Below, in pieces: positions 1,454 through 51,780 of a DNA stretch of 64,000 bases. Position 1 is the first letter of the stretch; each line of letters begins with the position of its first letter. The notes beneath the pieces are model-generated. The model saw nothing but the letters and a program-made list of their open reading frames with translations. It was not told where the DNA came from and did no database searches. The DNA comes from Lachnospiraceae bacterium (GTDB lineage: Bacteria > Bacillota > Clostridia > Lachnospirales > Lachnospiraceae), in assembly GCA_022510705.1 (NCBI GenBank), contig JAFLSX010000002.1, positions 41,818 to 105,817 on the forward strand. The letters are read 5' to 3'. A program made the translations under genes and the position numbers.

Positions 1454-3544
1454 ATGAAAGTTTACACGACCGACAAGATCCGCAACGTTGTTTTACTGGG
1501 GCATGGTGGCTCCGGTAAGACCAGTCTGGCTGAGGCTATGGCTTATTTATCCGGCATTACTTCCCGTATGGGGAAAGTGGAGGACGGCAATACAGTTAGC
1601 GATTACAGTAAGGAAGAACAGAAGAGGCAGTTTTCTATTTCTACTTCCGTCATTCCGGTAGAGTGGGAGGGTTACAAGATCAACATTTTGGATGCTCCCG
1701 GCTATTTTGATTTTGTTGGAGAGGTGGAGGAAGCCGTCAGTGCGGCAGGCGCTGCCATTATCGTAGTAAACGGTAAATCCGGTATAGAAGTGGGAACGGA
1801 GAAAGCATGGGAACTCTGTGAAAAATACAAGCTGCCGCGTTTTGTTTATGTAACCAACATGGATGTGGACAATGCTTCTTTCAGACAGGTAGTAGAGGAT
1901 ATGACAGAGAAATACGGCAAGAAGATCGCACCTTTCCATTTACCCATCCGCGAAAACGAAAAGTTTGTAGGTTATGTCAATGTAATTTCCGAAACCGGTC
2001 ACAGATGGCAGGGCAAGGAAGTTGCCCCCTGTGATGTGCCGGAGTATAATAAGCCCAATCTGCAGATCTGCAGAGACGCTCTCTTAGAGGCGGTAGCGGA
2101 GACCAGTGAGGAAATGATGGAGCGTTATTTCGGAGGAGAGGTATTCTCAGAGGCGGAAATCCGTGCGGCTCTGCGTACCAATGTCTGTGACGGCAGTATT
2201 GTTCCCGTGAGTATGGGATCCAATACGCTCTGCCAGGGTATTTATACGCTTTTGGACGATATTATCAAGTATCTGCCCAGTCCCGAGAATCGCCAGGTGG
2301 CAGGTATCAATATGAAAACCAATGATATCTACCATGCGGACTATGATTTTTCTAAGGCAAAATCCGCTTACATATGGAAGACTATTGTGGATCCGTTCAT
2401 CGGCAAATATTCCTTGATAAAAGTTAATTCGGGCGTTTTAAAAACAGATGATCTGATCTACAATGTGGACAGGGATATTGAAGAAAAAATAGGAAAGCTC
2501 TATGTGATGCAGGGTAATAAGCCCATAGAGGTTCCGGAGCTGCATGCAGGTGATATCGGCGCACTGGCCAAACTGACCGCAGCCAGAACAGGAAACAGTC
2601 TTTCCACCAAGGCCGTTACCATTAAATACGGTAAATGGGAGATTTCCAAGCCCTACACTTATATGCGTTATAAGCCCAAGAATAAGGGGGATGTGGATAA
2701 GATTTCCCAGGCACTGCAGAAGATGTCTCATGAGGACCAGACCCTGCAGATCGTCAACGATGCAGAGAACAGGCAGACACTTTTATACGGTATTGGTGAG
2801 CAGCATCTGGACATCGTAGCCAGCAGACTTCTGAATGAATACAAAGTGGAAATTGAATTGGCAAAGCCCAAGATTGCTTATAAGGAAACCGTTAAAAAGA
2901 CTTCGGATGTGGAATATAAGTACAAGAAACAGTCCGGCGGACACGGACAGTACGGCCATGTCAAGATGAGATTCTCTTCTTCGGGAGATTTGGAGACGCC
3001 ATTTGTTTTTGAGCAGGAAGTAGTGGGAGGTGCGGTTCCCAAGAATTTCTTCCCCGCTGTGGAGAAGGGACTGCAGGATTCCGTTGAAAGAGGCCCCATG
3101 GCTGCCTATCCGGTAGTGGGCGTAAAGGCCGTGCTCTATGACGGTTCCTATCATCCCGTGGATTCTTCGGAAATGGCTTTTAAGATGGCGACGATCCAGG
3201 CTTTCAAGAAGGGATTTATGGAGGCAGGACCGGTGCTCTTAGAGCCCATTGCTTCCTTGAAAGTGACGGTGCCGGATTCTTATACCGGAGATATCATGGG
3301 TGATCTGAATAAGCGCCGCGGCAGGGTATTAGGTATGAATCCTTTACCCGGAGGTAAACAGGTGATCGAGGCGGATATTCCCATGAGCAGTCTGTACGGC
3401 TATTGTACGGATCTGCGTTCCATGACCGGCGGACGGGGTGAATACACTTACGAATTTGCACGCTATGAACAGGCCCCCTCCGATGTACAGGAGAAGGAAG
3501 TAGCGGAAAGAGCTGCTAAGGTAGCGGAAGGAAATGTGGAGTAA
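1454..3544 (+). CDS. EF-G-like translational GTPase (EF-G paralogue)
   Basis: A 696-residue protein with the whole EF-G domain order: G domain, beta-barrel, and the C-terminal domains including the conserved GGHGQYGHVK region near residue 495. The G motifs differ from housekeeping EF-G. The P-loop is GHGGSGKT (residues 17-24), the switch II motif is DAPGYFDF with Tyr where translational GTPases carry the catalytic His, and the base-recognition motif reads TNMD rather than NKxD. This pattern belongs to the clostridial EF-G-like group rather than FusA, which normally sits with rpsL/rpsG and tuf. Its role is uncertain: ribosome recycling or a stress-specific translocase are possible. SD AAGAAAGGA precedes the ATG. 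A small membrane protein overlaps its end. Confidence 0.85.
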   Translation: MKVYTTDKIRNVVLLGHGGSGKTSLAEAMAYLSGITSRMGKVEDGNTVSDYSKEEQKRQFSISTSVIPVEWEGYKINILDAPGYFDFVGEVEEAVSAAGAAIIVVNGKSGIEVGTEKAWELCEKYKLPRFVYVTNMDVDNASFRQVVEDMTEKYGKKIAPFHLPIRENEKFVGYVNVISETGHRWQGKEVAPCDVPEYNKPNLQICRDALLEAVAETSEEMMERYFGGEVFSEAEIRAALRTNVCDGSIVPVSMGSNTLCQGIYTLLDDIIKYLPSPENRQVAGINMKTNDIYHADYDFSKAKSAYIWKTIVDPFIGKYSLIKVNSGVLKTDDLIYNVDRDIEEKIGKLYVMQGNKPIEVPELHAGDIGALAKLTAARTGNSLSTKAVTIKYGKWEISKPYTYMRYKPKNKGDVDKISQALQKMSHEDQTLQIVNDAENRQTLLYGIGEQHLDIVASRLLNEYKVEIELAKPKIAYKETVKKTSDVEYKYKKQSGGHGQYGHVKMRFSSSGDLETPFVFEQEVVGGAVPKNFFPAVEKGLQDSVERGPMAAYPVVGVKAVLYDGSYHPVDSSEMAFKMATIQAFKKGFMEAGPVLLEPIASLKVTVPDSYTGDIMGDLNKRRGRVLGMNPLPGGKQVIEADIPMSSLYGYCTDLRSMTGGRGEYTYEFARYEQAPSDVQEKEVAERAAKVAEGNVE

Positions 3545-3887
3545 AAAATTTTTGATCATTGCTATAGTGGTTACGATAGCTGCATGCCTTATCAATCTTG
3601 CCGAGGCCTATTTCTGGGAAGTGCTGCCGATTGCTACCGATGTGGATAAAGATAAGTGGTTTTCCGGCGAAACAAAAAGGGGCTATGGTGTTGAACTGCG
3701 TACAAGATATGATTATTCGGTACACGACTGGGGAGACCCCATAGTGGAAATGAGGTTTAGCCTTTTTTCTCTGATTTCCGATTTTGTGTTTACCTATTTT
3801 TATGTTGTTATGGGCTGGGCGCTTCTCGGTATTGGGAAGGAAGCAGTGAAGGATGTCACAAATTTTGGCAAGGAGGATGAATCCTGA
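3534..3887 (+). CDS. Small two-helix membrane protein, unknown function
   Basis: A 117-residue protein that I do not recognise. An N-terminal hydrophobic helix (residues about 5-26) and a second one (about 76-103) flank a charged ~45-residue stretch rich in Asp, Lys, Arg and Tyr, so both ends probably face the same side of the membrane. Its ATG overlaps the last 11 nt of the EF-G-like gene in another frame, which suggests translational coupling; a GGAAGGAA stretch sits directly before the ATG with very short spacing. The leuS promoter follows it. Confidence 0.6.
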   Translation: MWSKKFLIIAIVVTIAACLINLAEAYFWEVLPIATDVDKDKWFSGETKRGYGVELRTRYDYSVHDWGDPIVEMRFSLFSLISDFVFTYFYVVMGWALLGIGKEAVKDVTNFGKEDES

Positions 3888-3896
3888 TATTCCTGC

Positions 3897-3925
3897 TTGA
3901 CAGAAAACTCCAAAACGGATAAAAT
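3897..3925 (+). promoter_or_regulatory. Sigma-A promoter for the T-box-leuS unit
   Basis: TTGACA (3897-3902), 17-nt spacer, TAAAAT (3920-3925). Transcription would start near 3932 and run through the T-box leader. Confidence 0.8.
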
Positions 3926-3931
3926 GTAGGC

Positions 3932-4216
3932 AGTTTAAAGTATAAGGAAATGCAGAGAAGGAGAAGAGTAACAGCGCCAGGCTGTCAGAGAGCTGCCGGT
4001 TGGTGAGAGGCAGCAGCGCAAGGCTGTGAACTGGCTCCGGAGTTCCTGTGGGGAAATGCAGATTGTGCAGAGTAGTTGCAGGCGGCCCACTACCGTTATC
4101 AGTTATAAGTGCGTGGATATTTCTTTGTAATTCGGAGAATGTTCACGAAGCAGAGTGGTACCACGGAATGGAAAGCCCTTTCGTCTCTAGAAAACGAAAG
4201 GGCTTTATTATTTTTT
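3932..4216 (+). ncRNA. T-box leader (tRNA-Leu sensing) of leuS
   Basis: An untranslated leader of about 285 nt. The T-box sequence AGAGTGGTACCACGG at 4152-4166 offers TGGT to pair with an uncharged tRNA acceptor end. A stem-I apical segment (GCTGCC, GGTTGGTGAGA, GGCAGC near 3990-4015) is present. The likely specifier is CTG at 4031-4033, in GTGAA-CTG-G, matching leucine. It ends in a strong terminator with arms AAAGCCCTTTCGT (4172-4184) and ACGAAAGGGCTTT (4194-4206) followed by a T-run. By analogy with known T-boxes, uncharged tRNA-Leu would stabilise the antiterminator and let leuS be read. The exact specifier codon is my inference; CTC two bases further is the alternative. Confidence 0.9.
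4172..4216 (+). terminator. Conditional terminator inside the leuS T-box
   Basis: Perfect 13-bp stem with a 9-nt loop and a TTATTATTTTTT tail. The 5' arm directly follows the T-box motif, as expected when terminator and antiterminator are mutually exclusive. The leuS ribosome site AGGAGG follows immediately. Confidence 0.88.
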
Positions 4217-4230
4217 AGGAGGAGAACAAA

Positions 4231-6645
4231 ATGGCAGAACCGTACAATCACAGTGAGGTGGAAGCAAAATGGCAGAAAATATGGGATGATGAAAGGGCTT
4301 TTGCTACTTCAGAAGACTATAGTAAACCCAAATACTATGCGCTGGTAGAATTTCCCTACCCTTCGGGCCAGGGACTTCATGTAGGACATCCCCGTCCTTA
4401 TACGGCTCTTGATATTGTGGCAAGAAAGCGGAGAATGCAGGGTTATAACGTGCTCTATCCCATGGGCTGGGACGCATTTGGTCTGCCCACGGAGAATTAT
4501 GCGATTCAGAATCATATTCATCCCAGAATTGTAACAAAAAATAATGTGGAGCGTTTCAAAGGACAGCTTCATGCGCTGGGTTATTCCTTTGACTGGGATA
4601 GAGAGATCAACACTACGGATGAACACTATTATAAATGGACCCAGTGGATTTTTTTAAAGCTTTTTAATGCAGGACTGGCTTATAAGAGTGAAATGCCCAT
4701 CAACTGGTGTACTTCCTGTAAGGTGGGACTGGCCAATGAAGAGGTGGTAAACGGCGTCTGTGAGCGCTGTGGCTCCGAGGTTGTCCGTAAGGTCAAGAGC
4801 CAGTGGATGTTAAAGATTACGGAATATGCGGATAAATTGCTTCAGGGACTTGACAGCGTGGACTATGTGGAGCGCGTCAAGGTATCCCAGAAGAACTGGA
4901 TTGGTAAATCCACCGGTGCGGAAGTGGACTTTATCTTAAAAGATAAGGAAGATAAGCTGACAGTCTATACCACCAGACCGGATACTCTTTTCGGTGTTAC
5001 CTATATGGTTATGAGCCCGGAGCATCCTTTCATTGACAAGTATAAAGCGGACATTAAAAACTGGGATGCAGTGGTGGCTTACAGAGAGCAAGCTGCCAGA
5101 AAGTCCGATTTTGAGCGTACCGAGATAGCCAAAGACAAGACCGGTGTTATGTTAAACGGCCTGACAGCCGTAAATCCGGTAAACGGCAAGGAGATTCCGG
5201 TATGGATTTCCGACTATGTCCTCATGACCTACGGTACCGGTGCCATTATGGCGGTGCCTGCTCATGATGAGAGAGACTGGGAATTTGCAAAGAAGTTTGA
5301 TATGCCCATCATTGAAGTGGTGGCGGGTAGTCCAGTGGACGTGAATGAAGCGGTTTATACGGATGTTGCAAGCGGTATCTTGGTGAATTCTGAGTTTTTA
5401 AACGGTCTTTCCGTTGCGGATGCCAAGAAGAAGATTATTGAGTATTTAACCGAAAAAGGGATCGGACATCAAAAGACCAATTTTAAATTGAGGGACTGGG
5501 TATTTTCTAGACAGCGTTACTGGGGAGAGCCGATTCCTATTGTACACTGTGAAAAATGCGGTTATGTGGCTCTGCCGGAAAGTGAACTGCCTTTGGAATT
5601 ACCTGAGGTGGAGAGCTATATGCCCACGGACAACGGAGAATCCCCTCTGGCCCATATGACAGACTGGGTAAATACTACCTGTCCGCACTGCGGCGGTCCG
5701 GCTAAGCGGGAGACGGATACCATGCCCCAGTGGGCGGGTTCTTCCTGGTATTTCCTTAGATATACCGACCCGAAGAACGAGAAGGAACTGGCAAGTAAAG
5801 AAGCGCTGAACTACTGGATGCCCGTAGACTGGTATAACGGCGGTATGGAGCATACCACGCTGCACCTTTTATATTCCCGTTTTTGGCATAGATTTCTCTA
5901 TGATCAGAAGGTGGTACCTTGTCCGGAACCCTATCAGAAGAGAACCTCCCACGGTATGATCTTGGGATCCAACGGCGAGAAGATGAGTAAGTCCAGGGGA
6001 AATGTGGTCAATCCTGACGATATTGTCAGGGAATACGGCGCAGATACTCTGCGTACTTATGAAATGTTTATCGGTGCATTCGATCTGAGCGCTGCATGGT
6101 CTGAGGATGGTGTTAAGGGATGTCGCAGATTTTTGGAGAGAGTATGGAAACTGCAGGATATTCTGACGGATGAGGAAGGCTATTCCGCTGATATGGAAAC
6201 CAAACTGCATCAGACCATTAAGAAGGTCAGCTCGGATTTTGAAAATTTGAAATACAACACGGCTATTGCCGCTATGATGGCCCTGTTAAATGATTTCTAC
6301 AAGAAGAATGCGGTTACGAAGGGAGAGTTTAAAATTCTGCTCACTCTTTTAAATCCTGTAGCACCCCATATTACGGAGCAGCTTTGGGAAACTGTGGGAT
6401 ATGAGGGAAGGATCTACCAGACCTCCTGGCCCGAGTATGACGAGGCTAAGACAGTGGAAGCCAATGTGGAAGTTGCCGTGCAGATAAACGGCAAGACCAA
6501 GGCTACCATCCTGATTCCTAAGGAGGAAGGGAAGGAGAAGGTACTTACAATGGCAAAAGAGGTATTGGGAAGCAAGCTTTCCGGCACCATTGTAAAAGAA
6601 ATCTATGTACCAGGCAGAATTGTCAATCTTGTTGTAAAGCCTTAA
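4231..6645 (+). CDS. leuS: Leucyl-tRNA synthetase
   Basis: Charges tRNA-Leu with leucine in the cytoplasm (class Ia synthetase, 804 residues, usual bacterial length). The HIGH motif appears as HVGH at residues 50-53 and the KMSKS loop at 584-588. Zinc-ribbon-like cysteine pairs (CTSCK/CERCG and CEKCG/CPHCG) lie in the inserts, and the editing domain ([12 protein letters not shown], then [15 protein letters not shown]) lies between them. A strong AGGAGG lies before the ATG. Expression is set by the T-box upstream and transcription ends at the hairpin after the stop. Confidence 0.97.
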
Positions 6646-45673: not shown

Positions 45674-48600
45674 ATGAAATCCATGATGCGAAAAACAACA
45701 TTTAGGGAAATTAAACAGAGCCTCGGTAGATACTTGGCAATTCTGGCAATTATATCACTTGGAGTCGGTTTTTTTGCCGGTCTTAAAGAAACGAGGGATA
45801 CTATGGTGACCTCTGCCGGAGAATATCTTAACGGGTTGCAGTTATATGATTACAGGCTTTTATCCACGCTTGGTTTTGAAGAAGAGGCTGTTGAGGCACT
45901 GGCACAAAAAGAAGGTGTCAGGGCTGTGGAAGGAGCCGTATCCGCAGATATTTTATATATTGATGACGCAGGAAATGAAAATGTGTTGAAGATTCATTCG
46001 CTGACCAATACAGTCAATGCTACTGTGTTGACGGCAGGGAGGATGCCGGAGAATGCGTCGGAATGTGTTGTGGACAATTTGTTATTTGATGAAAGTGCGA
46101 TCGGTACGCAACTGGTGCTATCAGAAAATAACAAAGAAGAGGATCTGGATCATTTTTCTTTCCGGGAATATACGATTACCGGATTGGTACAGTCCTCTTA
46201 TTATATACAGTTTGAACGGGGTAATACATCTCTCGGAAGCGGACGGATAAGTGGATTTGCCTATTTGCTGCCGGATGGCTTCGCCATGGATTATTATACG
46301 GAAATTTTTGTGAAATTTGATGCAGACTATACATTATATTCAGAGGAATATGAGGCCTTTTTAGACAAACAGCAGCCCCTGTGGGAAGCTTACACCGATG
46401 AAGTTGCAATGCGTAGATACGATGAGTTGATCGAAGATGCAAAAGCCGAACTTGCGGATGCAGAAAGCGAACTTGCCGAAACGGTGGCTGATGCGGAGGC
46501 TGAACTTGCAGATGCGGAAAGAGAACTCTTGGACGGAGAAGCTAAACTAGCCGATGCAGAGGCCGAGTTTTTAGATGCAGAGAGAGATATTGCGGATGCG
46601 AGAAAAGAACTGGATATCGGCTGGAAGGAACTTGCTGATGCAGAAAAGGAGCTCGCGGACGGGGAAATTGCGCTTGCAGATGCAAAGATAACATTAGAAG
46701 AAAATGAGGCGCTGCTTGCCGGAAAACAGCAGGAATATGAGGACGGCATGAGAGCCTATACTTCCGGCAAAGAGCAGATTGCGGCGCAGCAGAGGGAACT
46801 TGATGCTGCTCGTATCCGCTTGAATACGGCGCAAGCGGATCTTGATAATGGGCAGGCATTATTTGATAGTTCTATGAATAGCTTACAAGGTGGATTTGCG
46901 GGTGGACTTCCGGATGATTTTTTGGATAATTTTCCGGATGGATTACCGGATGGCTTTCTGGATAATTTACCGAATGAGTTAATTGAAGAATTAATGTATT
47001 TAAAACAATTAAAAATTAAACTGGAAACCGGCAGAGCAGAGTTAGCCGCAGGCTGGGCACAGGTCAATGCAGGAACCGGACAGCTTAATTCTGCGAATGC
47101 TCAGTTAAACGGCGTCTATGCGCAGCTTTTGGATGCAGAGAAGCAGCTTACGGAAGGCTGGGAGGAACTAAATGCCGGTTGGGAGGAATATTACGATGGC
47201 GAGATAGAACTCGAAAACGCCAGAGCGGAAATTAAGGATGCCAGGCGTAAACTGCTGGACGGTGAGAAGGAGCTTGCGGATGGAGAAGCGGAGCTTGCGG
47301 ATGCCAGGGTGGAAATTGAGGATGCAAGGCAGGAACTTTTAGACGGCTGGGAGGAATATTACGACGGTCAGAGGGAACTTGCAGAAGAGGTTGCTGATGC
47401 AGAAGCAAAAATCGCGGATGCCAGAGCAGAAATAGATGATATTGATGCCCCTGATATTTATGTGCTGGGCCGCAACACCAATGTGGGTTATGTAATGTTT
47501 GAAAATGATTCAGGCATTGTGGAAGGTATGTCCAATGTCTTTCCTGTCATGTTCTTTTTAGTGGCAGCGTTAGTGTGCATGACCACCATGAACCGCATGG
47601 TGGAAGAGCAGCGGATACAGATTGGCGTATTGAAAGCACTCGGCTACGGTGAAGGCGCCATTATGGGAAAATACCTCTTTTATTCCGGCAGTGCGGCCAT
47701 TGCGGGCGGCTTGTTAGGGTTTGTATTTGGCACGCTGCTGTTTCCGACAGTGATTTGGGTAGTATATGGTATTATGTATCGGCTGGGTGATATCGTTCAT
47801 CTGTTTGACTTAAAGATTGCCGTGATTTCTCTGGCGGTGGCAGCGCTTTGTTCCATGGGTACAACCTGGTTTACCTGCAGGCAGGAACTTAGAGAGGTGG
47901 CCGCGGATCTGATGCGCCCGAAAGCCCCAAAAGCAGGCAAACGGGTCTTTTTAGAGCATGTCCCCTTTATCTGGCGGCATCTTAAATTCTTACATAAGGT
48001 ATCAGTCAGAAACATTGTGCGCTATAAAAAGCGTTTCTTCATGATGGTATTGGGAATCAGCGGGTGTACCGCACTTTTGCTGACGGGATTTGGCATTCGG
48101 GATTCCGTAACGGATATTGCCAATCTGCAGTTTGAGACGATCCATATTTTTGATATGAGCATTACCCTGCAGGATAGGCTTTCCGGGACAGGTGATGAGG
48201 AGATACTTAAAACCGCACAATCCTATGGCGTAGAAGTGCTTCCGGTTTTGGAAGAAAGCTGGGATTTGGAGGTGGATGGCACAATTAAGGCCATCAATCT
48301 GGTGATTGCGGGGGAACCGGAACATTCGGAGAATTTTCTTGATCTGCATACGGGAGATGGAATTTCAATTGCATATCCGGGAGAGGGAGAAGCAGTGATT
48401 TCCGATAAGCTTGCGGAGACTTACGGATTAAAAGCAGGAGATGAAATTTTCCTTTATAATGGAAACCGTACACAGTTGCATGCCGTTATATCCGGTATCT
48501 GTGAAAATTATATTTATAACTACGTTTATCTGACCCCGCAGACATATGAAAAGCAGGTAGGGGTTCCCGAATATAAGAGCCTGTATCTGAATGTACCGGA

Positions 48601-49111
48601 AGCGGAGGATGTCCATCGGGTGGGCGCTGCGCTCATGATGGCGGAGGGCGTAACGGGTGTTAACATCAATGAGGATATTCGGACACGTGTATCCGGAATG
48701 ATGGGAAGCATGAATTATATTGTGATCGTGATCATTTTTTCCGCAGGCTCGCTGGCCTTTGTAGTACTGTATAATTTGAATAATATCAATATCACGGAGC
48801 GGCTTCGGGAAATTGCGACCATCAAGGTGTTAGGCTTTTACAAAAAGGAAACGGAAGCTTATGTGTTTCGGGAAAACATTGCGCTGACTGCTATCGGCTG
48901 CGCGGTGGGCCTGGTTTTAGGAAAGCTTCTGCACCTTTTCGTGATGGGAGAGATCAATATCGATATGATATCCTTCGATGTACAGATCAGGCCCAGCAGT
49001 TATGTCTTCAGTGTACTTTTAACCTTTGTTTTCACCTGGTTTATTAATCGGCTGATGTCCGGTAAACTGAACCGGATCAATATGGCGGAATCCTTAAAAT
49101 CCGTGGATTAA
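45674..49111 (+). CDS. FtsX-type ABC permease with a very long coiled-coil ectodomain
   Basis: 1145 residues. Membrane helix at about 18-40; a large outer region up to about 620; an FtsX domain at about 625-745, a second set of helices from about 795, another outer domain, and a last FtsX domain at about 1010-1135. Between about 245 and 595 the sequence is a heptad-like chain of Ala/Asp/Glu/Leu units (ELADAERELLDGEAKLADAE style), broken by a repeat (DDFLDNFPDGLPDGFLDNLP) at about 412-435, then resumes. That makes two antiparallel-capable coiled coils. It probably spans the wall; it could carry lipoproteins or transmit a force to wall enzymes, which fits lgt beside it. Substrate unknown. Confidence 0.88.
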   Translation: MKSMMRKTTFREIKQSLGRYLAILAIISLGVGFFAGLKETRDTMVTSAGEYLNGLQLYDYRLLSTLGFEEEAVEALAQKEGVRAVEGAVSADILYIDDAGNENVLKIHSLTNTVNATVLTAGRMPENASECVVDNLLFDESAIGTQLVLSENNKEEDLDHFSFREYTITGLVQSSYYIQFERGNTSLGSGRISGFAYLLPDGFAMDYYTEIFVKFDADYTLYSEEYEAFLDKQQPLWEAYTDEVAMRRYDELIEDAKAELADAESELAETVADAEAELADAERELLDGEAKLADAEAEFLDAERDIADARKELDIGWKELADAEKELADGEIALADAKITLEENEALLAGKQQEYEDGMRAYTSGKEQIAAQQRELDAARIRLNTAQADLDNGQALFDSSMNSLQGGFAGGLPDDFLDNFPDGLPDGFLDNLPNELIEELMYLKQLKIKLETGRAELAAGWAQVNAGTGQLNSANAQLNGVYAQLLDAEKQLTEGWEELNAGWEEYYDGEIELENARAEIKDARRKLLDGEKELADGEAELADARVEIEDARQELLDGWEEYYDGQRELAEEVADAEAKIADARAEIDDIDAPDIYVLGRNTNVGYVMFENDSGIVEGMSNVFPVMFFLVAALVCMTTMNRMVEEQRIQIGVLKALGYGEGAIMGKYLFYSGSAAIAGGLLGFVFGTLLFPTVIWVVYGIMYRLGDIVHLFDLKIAVISLAVAALCSMGTTWFTCRQELREVAADLMRPKAPKAGKRVFLEHVPFIWRHLKFLHKVSVRNIVRYKKRFFMMVLGISGCTALLLTGFGIRDSVTDIANLQFETIHIFDMSITLQDRLSGTGDEEILKTAQSYGVEVLPVLEESWDLEVDGTIKAINLVIAGEPEHSENFLDLHTGDGISIAYPGEGEAVISDKLAETYGLKAGDEIFLYNGNRTQLHAVISGICENYIYNYVYLTPQTYEKQVGVPEYKSLYLNVPEAEDVHRVGAALMMAEGVTGVNINEDIRTRVSGMMGSMNYIVIVIIFSAGSLAFVVLYNLNNINITERLREIATIKVLGFYKKETEAYVFRENIALTAIGCAVGLVLGKLLHLFVMGEINIDMISFDVQIRPSSYVFSVLLTFVFTWFINRLMSGKLNRINMAESLKSVD

Positions 49112-49302: not shown

Positions 49303-49331
49303 TTGACATATATAGATAACCTATATATAAT
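49303..49331 (+). promoter_or_regulatory. Consensus sigma-A promoter of the vanZ-padR module
   Basis: TTGACA (49303-49308), exactly 17 nt, TATAAT (49326-49331); a perfect match buried in an inverted repeat that reaches past the start site. Confidence 0.9.
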
Positions 49332-49353
49332 CATATATAGGTTATCTATATAT
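49308..49353. promoter_or_regulatory. Perfect 46-bp inverted-repeat operator, likely PadR site
   Basis: Two 21-bp arms (49308-49328 and 49333-49353) are exact complements around AATC. Each arm itself has TATAG...CTATA symmetry, i.e. two operator units facing each other. It covers the spacer, -10 and start site, so a bound repressor would block transcription. A PadR gene is second in the operon and is the natural candidate. Confidence 0.8.
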
Positions 49354-50014: not shown

Positions 50015-50356
50015 ATGGCAGTGGATAAAAGTCTGGTATCGGGAAGTATGACTTTGCTATTGTTAAAATTATTGGAGGATAAGGACAGATACGGCTATGA
50101 GATGATCGAGCAGTTATCGGAGAAGTCCCAGAATGTATTTGAATTAAAGGCAGGGACTTTGTATCCACTCTTACATGGGTTGGAAGAAAAGGGATTGGTA
50201 AATTCCTATGAAAAAGAAGTAAACGGAAAGCAGCGGAAGTATTACCATTTGACAAAAGAGGGGCGTAAGAGTCTTTCTGAGAAGAAAGAAGAATGGCAGC
50301 GTTATGCCGGCGCTGTAAACAGGGTGTTGGGAGGTGTGGTTTATGCAGGTATCTGA
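50015..50356 (+). CDS. PadR-family transcription regulator
   Basis: 113 residues, winged helix with GSMTLLLLKLLEDKDRYGYEMIEQL, GTLYPLLHGLEEKGLV and the RKYYHLTKEGRK wing, then a helix for dimer formation. Strong AAGGAGGAG before the ATG. Overlaps the next gene by 14 nt. PadR repressors of this kind (LmrR, BcPadR) usually control membrane proteins encoded beside them and respond to drugs or envelope stress; the inducer here is unknown. Confidence 0.93.
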   Translation: MAVDKSLVSGSMTLLLLKLLEDKDRYGYEMIEQLSEKSQNVFELKAGTLYPLLHGLEEKGLVNSYEKEVNGKQRKYYHLTKEGRKSLSEKKEEWQRYAGAVNRVLGGVVYAGI

Positions 50357-51701
50357 ATATCTGGAAGCGGTCACGGCACAAATGCGCTGTAAAAGGGCCA
50401 GAGGTATGGTGGAAAAAGAACTGAAGGCCCATATTGAGGATCAGGCCGATACGTATATGGAATATGGAATACCGAAAGAGGAAGCATACAAAAAAGCAGT
50501 AGCACAGATGGGAGATCCCATACAGGTAGGCACCGATATGGACAGGCTGCATCGTCCCGATATAGATAAAAAAGCGCTTTTTCTCATATGTCTGCTCAGT
50601 CTGGCAGGCGGTGTCTTATACAGATGGAGCATGGATATGGGAGATGGCCGTATGTTCCAGATGGGGGATTTTTTCGAACACCTGTTATTGGATGTACTCC
50701 CGGGAATGTTTCTCATGTGGCTGATCATTAAAATAGATTATACCAGAATTGCCAGACATCCTTTTCTTTTCAGTTTAGTGCTCGTTATGATTGCTCCATA
50801 TGCAGAACATTTCGAAGCTCGCGGTAAATATGGGTATGTATTTTTAAGTTTTACTTTGATTGCAATCCTTTTTGGAGCAGTCCTTCATAAACTGCGTGAA
50901 TATAAGCTGATGGGGATGTTCTTTGGCTTTCTCTGGCTTATGTTTATCATATTACTGTATCACTTTTCAGGTCGGGCTAATATAGCAAATTCCGTAAATC
51001 TGCTGGTGATCGGTATGTTCCTTTTGGGCACGGGTGCCTTTAAAGATTGGTTTGAGGCGGGGAAAAAGAAATCTGTGGCTATGTATTTGGGACTGTTGTG
51101 TGAGCTGATTCTTCTTGGCGGGTTCGGACTGGTGCTTCACAGATTTTTTGGACAGTCCTATGTCAGACACCGGTTAATGGGCTGGATAAATGCTGATCAG
51201 GAAGGTAATTATATTTTTAATGTGATCAGAACGCAAGCGGCAAATGCCGGCTTCTTTAAGGGAAGCGGCAACTTAACGGGGGTTGGCAATGAAAATGAAT
51301 ACTTTATCATCAATCTGATTTCCAGATACGGTTATTTAGCAGCTATCTTGGTAGCAGTTCTCCTGGGGCTGTTGTTTTTGGTATTGTTATCAGGTGTTAA
51401 AAAGCAGCAGAACAGATTGGGCACGTTAATGGGAATTGCGGCAATCCTTACCCTCTGTATACCTGTAGTGGAGCATATAGCCTATAATTTGAGTTTGATT
51501 CCTACGGGGGCGCTGATCTTACCGTTCTTTTCCGGTACCGGTGCGGATGCATGGATGCAGGGAGATTACTGCAGAGGAGCAATTCTAAGTTATTATGCGG
51601 CTATGGGCATCTGCCTATCGGTATACCGAAGCCGTAACATTGTAGCGGAGCAGGATGCCATTCCAAAGCTGCGGTTAAAATTAAAACTGGAACGGCAGTA
51701 G
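50343..51701 (+). CDS. Permease-prefix/HAAS-like domain fused to a SEDS (FtsW/RodA)-like membrane core
   Basis: 452 residues from the ATG at 50343 (GGAGGT 7 nt upstream). Residues 1-75 are a helical domain seen at the N-terminus of PadR-linked membrane proteins (QVSEYLEAVTAQMRCKRARG, EELKAHIEDQ-like text, IPKEEAYKKAVAQMGDP). Then come about ten helices that align with SEDS glycosyltransferases: the loop ending NENEYFIINLISRYGY corresponds to the TDFIFAVIxEExG loop, and IPTGALILPFFSGTG to PxTGLxLPFISYGGS. The catalytic Asp of that loop is Glu here (E319) and the following EE is SR. So it is a divergent SEDS relative; whether it polymerises glycan or acts as a sensor is unknown. It should be repressed with vanZ. 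Confidence 0.75.
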   Translation: MQVSEYLEAVTAQMRCKRARGMVEKELKAHIEDQADTYMEYGIPKEEAYKKAVAQMGDPIQVGTDMDRLHRPDIDKKALFLICLLSLAGGVLYRWSMDMGDGRMFQMGDFFEHLLLDVLPGMFLMWLIIKIDYTRIARHPFLFSLVLVMIAPYAEHFEARGKYGYVFLSFTLIAILFGAVLHKLREYKLMGMFFGFLWLMFIILLYHFSGRANIANSVNLLVIGMFLLGTGAFKDWFEAGKKKSVAMYLGLLCELILLGGFGLVLHRFFGQSYVRHRLMGWINADQEGNYIFNVIRTQAANAGFFKGSGNLTGVGNENEYFIINLISRYGYLAAILVAVLLGLLFLVLLSGVKKQQNRLGTLMGIAAILTLCIPVVEHIAYNLSLIPTGALILPFFSGTGADAWMQGDYCRGAILSYYAAMGICLSVYRSRNIVAEQDAIPKLRLKLKLERQ

Positions 51702-51732: not shown

Positions 51733-51780
51733 ACACCCATATTTTAGGAAGAGGCGTCCGAAAATATGGGTGTCTTTTTA
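51733..51780 (+). terminator. Intrinsic terminator after the PadR module
   Basis: ACACCCATATTTT (51733-51745) pairs perfectly with AAAATATGGGTGT (51761-51773), 15-nt loop, followed by CTTTTTA. Confidence 0.85.

Follow-up and report, generated by a model that had tools for sequence, protein, structure and literature searches.

A HAAS-SEDS fusion protein encoded downstream of padR in a Lachnospiraceae bacterium: altered catalytic residues and a possible role in a PadR-controlled switch

The window, a 64,000-nucleotide stretch of a gut-type Lachnospiraceae bacterium, carries on its forward strand an intact open reading frame (50343-51701, 452 amino acids) in which an N-terminal HAAS domain is fused to a SEDS-like membrane domain. 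Judged from its sequence, this protein descends from the SEDS family, but its residue content is not that of a RodA/FtsW polymerase. On balance, HAAS-SEDS more likely serves as the membrane-bound partner in a PadR switch than as an enzyme of wall synthesis. At the sequence level, four observations are well established and underlie this reading: the architecture of the protein, its residue losses, its linkage to padR and the conservation of an operator.

Domain structure and SEDS homology

The N-terminal domain (50343-50558, forward strand) covers residues 1-72. Here, the NCBIfam model perm_prefix_1 (NF038403) matched residues 15-66 with 48.2 bits (cut-off 30), and the Pfam model HAAS (PF22564) matched residues 5-62 with 18 bits, which is below its cut-off of 27. 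We took the perm_prefix_1 match in the N-terminal ~70 residues as a HAAS domain. The three helices and the GxP motif that characterize such domains were both found. The motif, which PMC11237479 describes for HAAS domains, is G57-D58-P59, and in the family G57 is conserved at 1.00 and P59 at 0.74. An AF2 model calculated from two sequences placed helices at residues 17-40, 45-56 and 59-69 with pLDDT values of about 63-80. As a whole, this model was poor (pLDDT 44, pTM 0.25); its helices would fit ~10 transmembrane segments, but this arrangement is untrustworthy.

The SEDS-like membrane domain (50568-51647, forward strand; residues 76-435) was assigned by profile homology. The Pfam model FTSW_RODA_SPOVE (PF01098) matched residues 251-401 with 28.8 bits, just above the cut-off of 26.4. 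When the PDB was searched with the single query sequence, no SEDS match was obtained and a family profile was required; with the profile of the HAAS-SEDS family, the best match was the RodA structure 8tj3 (6e-45, whole membrane domain), and FtsW structures were matched too. Because the family profile matches solved RodA and FtsW structures, the SEDS homology of the query can be considered safe, and the same match supports the alignment of Glu319 discussed below in place of the AF2 model. The first-pass annotation had described this reading frame as a SEDS homologue with a fused N-terminal domain. The former proposal is borne out by the PF01098 score, with which the family profile and hhalign agree, and the latter by the perm_prefix_1 match. 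The scores with the NCBIfam equivalog models remained far below the cut-offs (RodA, 24.1 vs 336.7 bits; FtsW, 15.7 vs 337.5 bits). The genome from which the window was taken encodes three ordinary SEDS proteins besides HAAS-SEDS, which makes the latter a fourth, divergent one. Scans of viral contigs found nothing.

The catalytic Asp column and other SEDS residues

Glu319 (codon 51297-51299, forward strand) occupies the place of the catalytic Asp262 of E. coli RodA. The two residues were paired in three alignments, one made with MAFFT and two with hhalign. When the five-member clade of the query was compared with 17 canonical SEDS proteins by hhalign, Glu319 fell on the D262 column (E 2.5e-15), and the same result was obtained with 40 family members (E 4.7e-48). 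The distance to the invariant Gly (G330 in the query, G273 in RodA) is identical. Thus, the Asp-to-Glu exchange predicted in the first-pass annotation can be confirmed.

To describe the family, we gathered 76 HAAS-SEDS homologues with the same fusion from one order, the phylum and the genus. Their D262 column contained D in 48, E in 11, A in 6, N in 5 and Y in 2 cases plus single others; Gly, Ser, Arg and Thr were seen there in some members. Canonical SEDS proteins carried Asp at this column in 32/32 cases with 0 changes. On the family tree, at least 16 changes between Asp and other residues were counted, along with at least 5 changes to or from Glu. The clade of the query itself reads E, E, A, A, A at this column; the acidic residue that is invariant in this clade lies two positions before Glu319 (E317). 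Glu319 is identical in the query and in its relative L005. Six related proteins from another family of the order (L015-L019) also have Glu in common, and the residue is locally conserved in this group. In L016 and L019 (about 1474-4303), a single padR is followed by two HAAS-SEDS genes in tandem, each of which encodes Glu at the catalytic position.

The motif PFFSGTG (residues 394-400; 51522-51542, forward strand) stands where PFISYGG or PLVSYGG would be expected, as the first-pass annotation had noticed for PFISYGGS. It is followed in the last extracytoplasmic loop by the insert ADAWMQGDYCRG (residues 401-412; 51543-51578), which we found in the query and L005 only. Moreover, the query lacks W102 and the ~13 loop residues directly before Glu319, among them Pro257. 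We used the 21 positions that are invariant across the alignment of 17 canonical SEDS proteins as a reference set and found that family members retain on average 9.2 of them and the query 7. Q111, E114 and K117 are jointly retained in 0/76 members, and E270 or E271 in 4/76. At the positions of Q111, P112, E114 and K117 the query has a gap, Tyr, Phe and Phe, and at E270/E271 Ser and Arg. Since most members are gapped in ECL2, the alignment is uncertain there, and the motif as a whole can be called lost with more certainty than any individual residue can be identified. Other positions are largely retained in the family (R210 in 61/76, G273 and P337 in 76/76 each, S340 and G342 in 67/76 each), and the query has kept R277 (corresponding to RodA R210), P394 and S397. 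For E. coli RodA, the D262A and P257A mutants were reported to be inactive, and mutants of R210, W102, Q111 and D159 were weakened (PMC10449877), which explains why the loss of such residues matters. Taken together, these data argue that the whole HAAS-SEDS family has left the RodA/FtsW active site.

Family hallmarks, operator and operon

All scanned family members (40/40) matched NF038403 at E<=0.001, which makes the N-terminal domain the real hallmark, and 73/76 homologues have padR directly upstream on the same strand. The first-pass annotation had proposed to check whether Glu and the N-terminal domain are both conserved among homologues; the N-terminal domain is, and Glu is not, since homologues carry Asp. 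The HAAS residues E26, H30, G42, A48, M56, G57, G63, H70 and P72 are conserved at 95-100%. Mean pairwise identity amounts to 39.6% for the HAAS domain and 23.6% for the SEDS part, compared with 38.9% for canonical SEDS proteins over the same columns. The HAAS ('permease prefix 1') domain, the upstream padR and the lost SEDS invariants (Q111, E114, K117, E270/E271) are the marks of this family, and the earlier proposal of a distinct subfamily holds. Apart from padR, we observed no recurrent neighbours at the family loci except a sigma-factor gene near padR in five basal members (L036, L037, L052, L053 and L055), as in the Listeria sigC operon.

For the query and L005, which are 80% identical, a dN/dS of 0.17 was calculated overall (0.06 for the HAAS domain, 0.20 for the SEDS part). 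From ECL4 to ECL5, a part that includes Glu319, the ratio was 0.09, and values for the loop region ranged from 0.06 to 0.09. These values indicate that the gene, including its altered loop, is maintained, which agrees with the first-pass view that it is not decaying. The strong purifying selection on ECL4-ECL5 would also be explicable by a catalytic role.

The padR gene (50015-50356, forward strand) codes for a PadR-family repressor of 113 amino acids (PadR-2 size; PF03551, E 1.2e-24) and overlaps the HAAS-SEDS gene by 14 nt. Further upstream, a predicted sigma-A-type promoter (TTGACA-N17-TATAAT; 49303-49331, forward strand) matches the consensus in 12/12 positions. It is overlaid by two tandem operator units, both of them 19-bp palindromes of the form TATATAG-N5-CTATATA, and the whole arrangement spans 49303-49352. 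Unit 1, TATATAGATAACCTATATA (49309-49327, forward strand), lies within the promoter spacer and recurs in relatives; unit 2, TATATAGGTTATCTATATA (49334-49352, forward strand), is located just 3' of the -10 element. Published PadR sites of the type ATGT-N8-ACAT (cited in PMC4517056) are absent from this promoter, where TATATAG-N5-CTATATA, which resembles that site but differs from it, occurs twice instead. ATGT-N9-ACAT forms are present in some relatives.

Upstream of padR, the operator unit was found with at most one mismatch in 43/74 regions (0.12 expected), and in 46/50 loci that have a site with at most two mismatches it overlaps the best promoter. In the genome of the window, the pattern with at most one mismatch occurs at two sites only, both at 49309-49352. 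A scan of 150 family genomes gave an exact operator site in 12 genomes. Among 12 operator loci examined outside the genome of the window, padR follows immediately 3' in 10, and in these 10 the next gene is HAAS-SEDS or, in one case, a short HAAS remnant. At this latter locus (L123, about 913-1480), the operator pair and padR precede an 80-aa HAAS remnant that lacks the SEDS core. A reversed control pattern was about equally frequent in the scanned genomes, so that the evidence for the operator lies in its placement and not in its frequency. The PadR protein of the window is predicted to bind the tandem operator.

A vanZ-like gene (PF04892; 49396-49971, forward strand) separates operator and padR in the window, which makes vanZ-padR-HAAS-SEDS the likely transcript there. 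In L005 the operator directly precedes padR with no vanZ between. The vanZ gene is likely a derived addition to the operon. As a conserved part of the unit it was rejected because L005 has no vanZ at this place and because vanZ is no recurrent neighbour in the family. An action on lipid-linked wall precursors has been predicted for VanZ proteins (PMC12419801), and fusions of VanZ with HAAS domains are also described (PMC11237479). After the operon, a terminator-like hairpin was found (51748-51779, forward strand), but the number of hairpins detected was close to the mean of shuffled sequences. On the other side, positions 45674-49111 encode a 1145-aa permease-like protein that contains a long repetitive coiled-coil insert of the ADAEAEL/AELADGE type. 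An ABC ATPase gene precedes it; this protein is only 58% identical in L005, and its neighbours are 80-92% identical.

A possible PadR-controlled switch and its relation to known systems

If HAAS-SEDS forms the membrane component of a PadR switch, it might work as follows. The SEDS-derived membrane domain would no longer polymerize glycan and would have kept the donor-cavity part of the fold (R277, P394, S397). Its probable ligand would be an undecaprenyl-(pyro)phosphate, for example lipid II; alternatively, the domain would respond to the lack of this ligand or to an antibiotic attached to it. The resulting change would be relayed to the HAAS domain at the cytoplasmic N-terminus. This domain may contact the PadR protein encoded upstream and hold or release it. 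PadR would repress the operon from the two tandem operator units that overlie the sole consensus promoter, and release of PadR would switch on vanZ-padR-HAAS-SEDS. A more specific version of this idea, for which we claim tentative standing, is that the SEDS fold, with its repeated loss of the catalytic Asp, may have been converted into a receptor for lipid II or undecaprenyl-pyrophosphate that controls a dedicated PadR repressor.

An alternative that we regard as unlikely is a specialized or back-up glycosyltransferase, a divergent SEDS polymerase that PadR would induce when RodA/FtsW are blocked or lipid II is modified and in which Glu319 would act as general base. Hauf 2019 (PMC6624303) suggested such a role for the Listeria monocytogenes homologue Lmo0421. 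The strong constraint on the loop and the acidic residues at the D262 column (Asp in 48/76, Glu in 11/76) fit with it, and the 48 Asp-carrying members make polymerase activity possible in part of the family. However, several members have Ala, Tyr, Gly, Ser, Arg or Thr at this column (Ala in 3/5 of the query's own clade), the QPSExxK and EE motifs are lost throughout the family and the query lacks P257 together with its loop. Moreover, Lmo0421 replaced neither RodA nor FtsW and left moenomycin sensitivity unaltered (PMC6624303). Quite unlikely in our opinion is an envelope effector without sensing function, that is, an induced SEDS-like domain that sequesters lipid II or modulates the complexes of canonical SEDS proteins with PBPs while HAAS merely tunes the feedback on PadR. 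The location of the SEDS gene at the end of a predicted PadR-repressed operon would suit this scenario, and E. coli FtsW D297A, which lacks the Asp, is dominant-negative yet binds lipid II and FtsI (PMC8765783). It would leave unexplained, however, why the HAAS domain is best conserved and the SEDS part drifts freely.

Two further readings can be judged from the family data. The first-pass annotation had regarded Glu as a possible mark of a subfamily, and its sharing by the six proteins of the other family and by the query and L005 would be in line with a stable Glu-using group. We consider this very improbable, and Glu as a family mark was rejected on the basis of the 76 homologues and the tree, on which Glu changed separately at least five times and close relatives show mixed states. 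A decaying pseudogene might be suspected from the extreme divergence of the protein (7/21 canonical invariants left), but the open frame, the purifying selection relative to L005 and the intact promoter/operator and neighbours allow us to dismiss this option almost completely.

Should the proposed PadR switch exist, it would provide Bacillota with a route from the state of wall precursors to transcription that does not involve a histidine kinase. HAAS-SEDS/PadR pairs occur across Bacillota, yet no role has been assigned to Lmo0421, the single member tested so far. The operator and the recruitment of vanZ offer a direct and cheap route to asking whether the SEDS domain senses a precursor. Because the family as a whole appears to have departed from the RodA/FtsW active site, the annotation 'FtsW/RodA/SpoVE family cell cycle protein' is probably misleading for its members.

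The architecture of HAAS-SEDS/PadR pairs is already known, since both Hauf 2019 and Ravi 2024 describe such pairs. In L. monocytogenes, the PadR protein LstR represses the lmo0421 operon about 145-fold, and overproduction of Lmo0421 leaves the sensitivity to wall antibiotics unchanged (Hauf 2019, PMC6624303). Lmo0421 (sigC operon, L036) resembles the query in its N-terminal HAAS domain fused to SEDS and in the padR gene directly upstream, and by profile it belongs to the same family. It differs in that Asp and PFISYGGS are kept and that its operon contains a sigma-factor gene and no vanZ; a search for TATATAG-N5-CTATATA before the padR of lmo0421 did not find this operator. This only tested member carries Asp and is separated from the query by a large distance on the tree. 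In Ravi 2024 (PMC11237479), HAAS-PadR is proposed as a two-part signalling system and possible alternative to two-component systems, and FtsW/RodA/SpoVE fusions (CAC98500.1) are listed among its examples. As in the HAAS-PadR-like wHTH systems described there, the query is a multi-transmembrane protein that begins with a GxP HAAS domain and has an adjoining standalone padR, but vanZ is a separate gene of the operon here and not a fusion. In the passages of that paper covered here, we found neither an analysis of the catalytic residues of SEDS fusions nor an operator sequence, and in a limited search of open-access literature no earlier description of the family-wide loss of catalytic residues, the tandem operator or the recruitment of vanZ was found. 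With canonical RodA/FtsW/SpoVE proteins (PF01098), the query shares a homologous membrane domain, as the match to RodA 8tj3 indicates, but not the catalytic Asp and the QPSExxK and EE motifs. To these known systems, our analysis adds the predicted tandem PadR-type operator over the promoter, which recurs before padR in most relatives.
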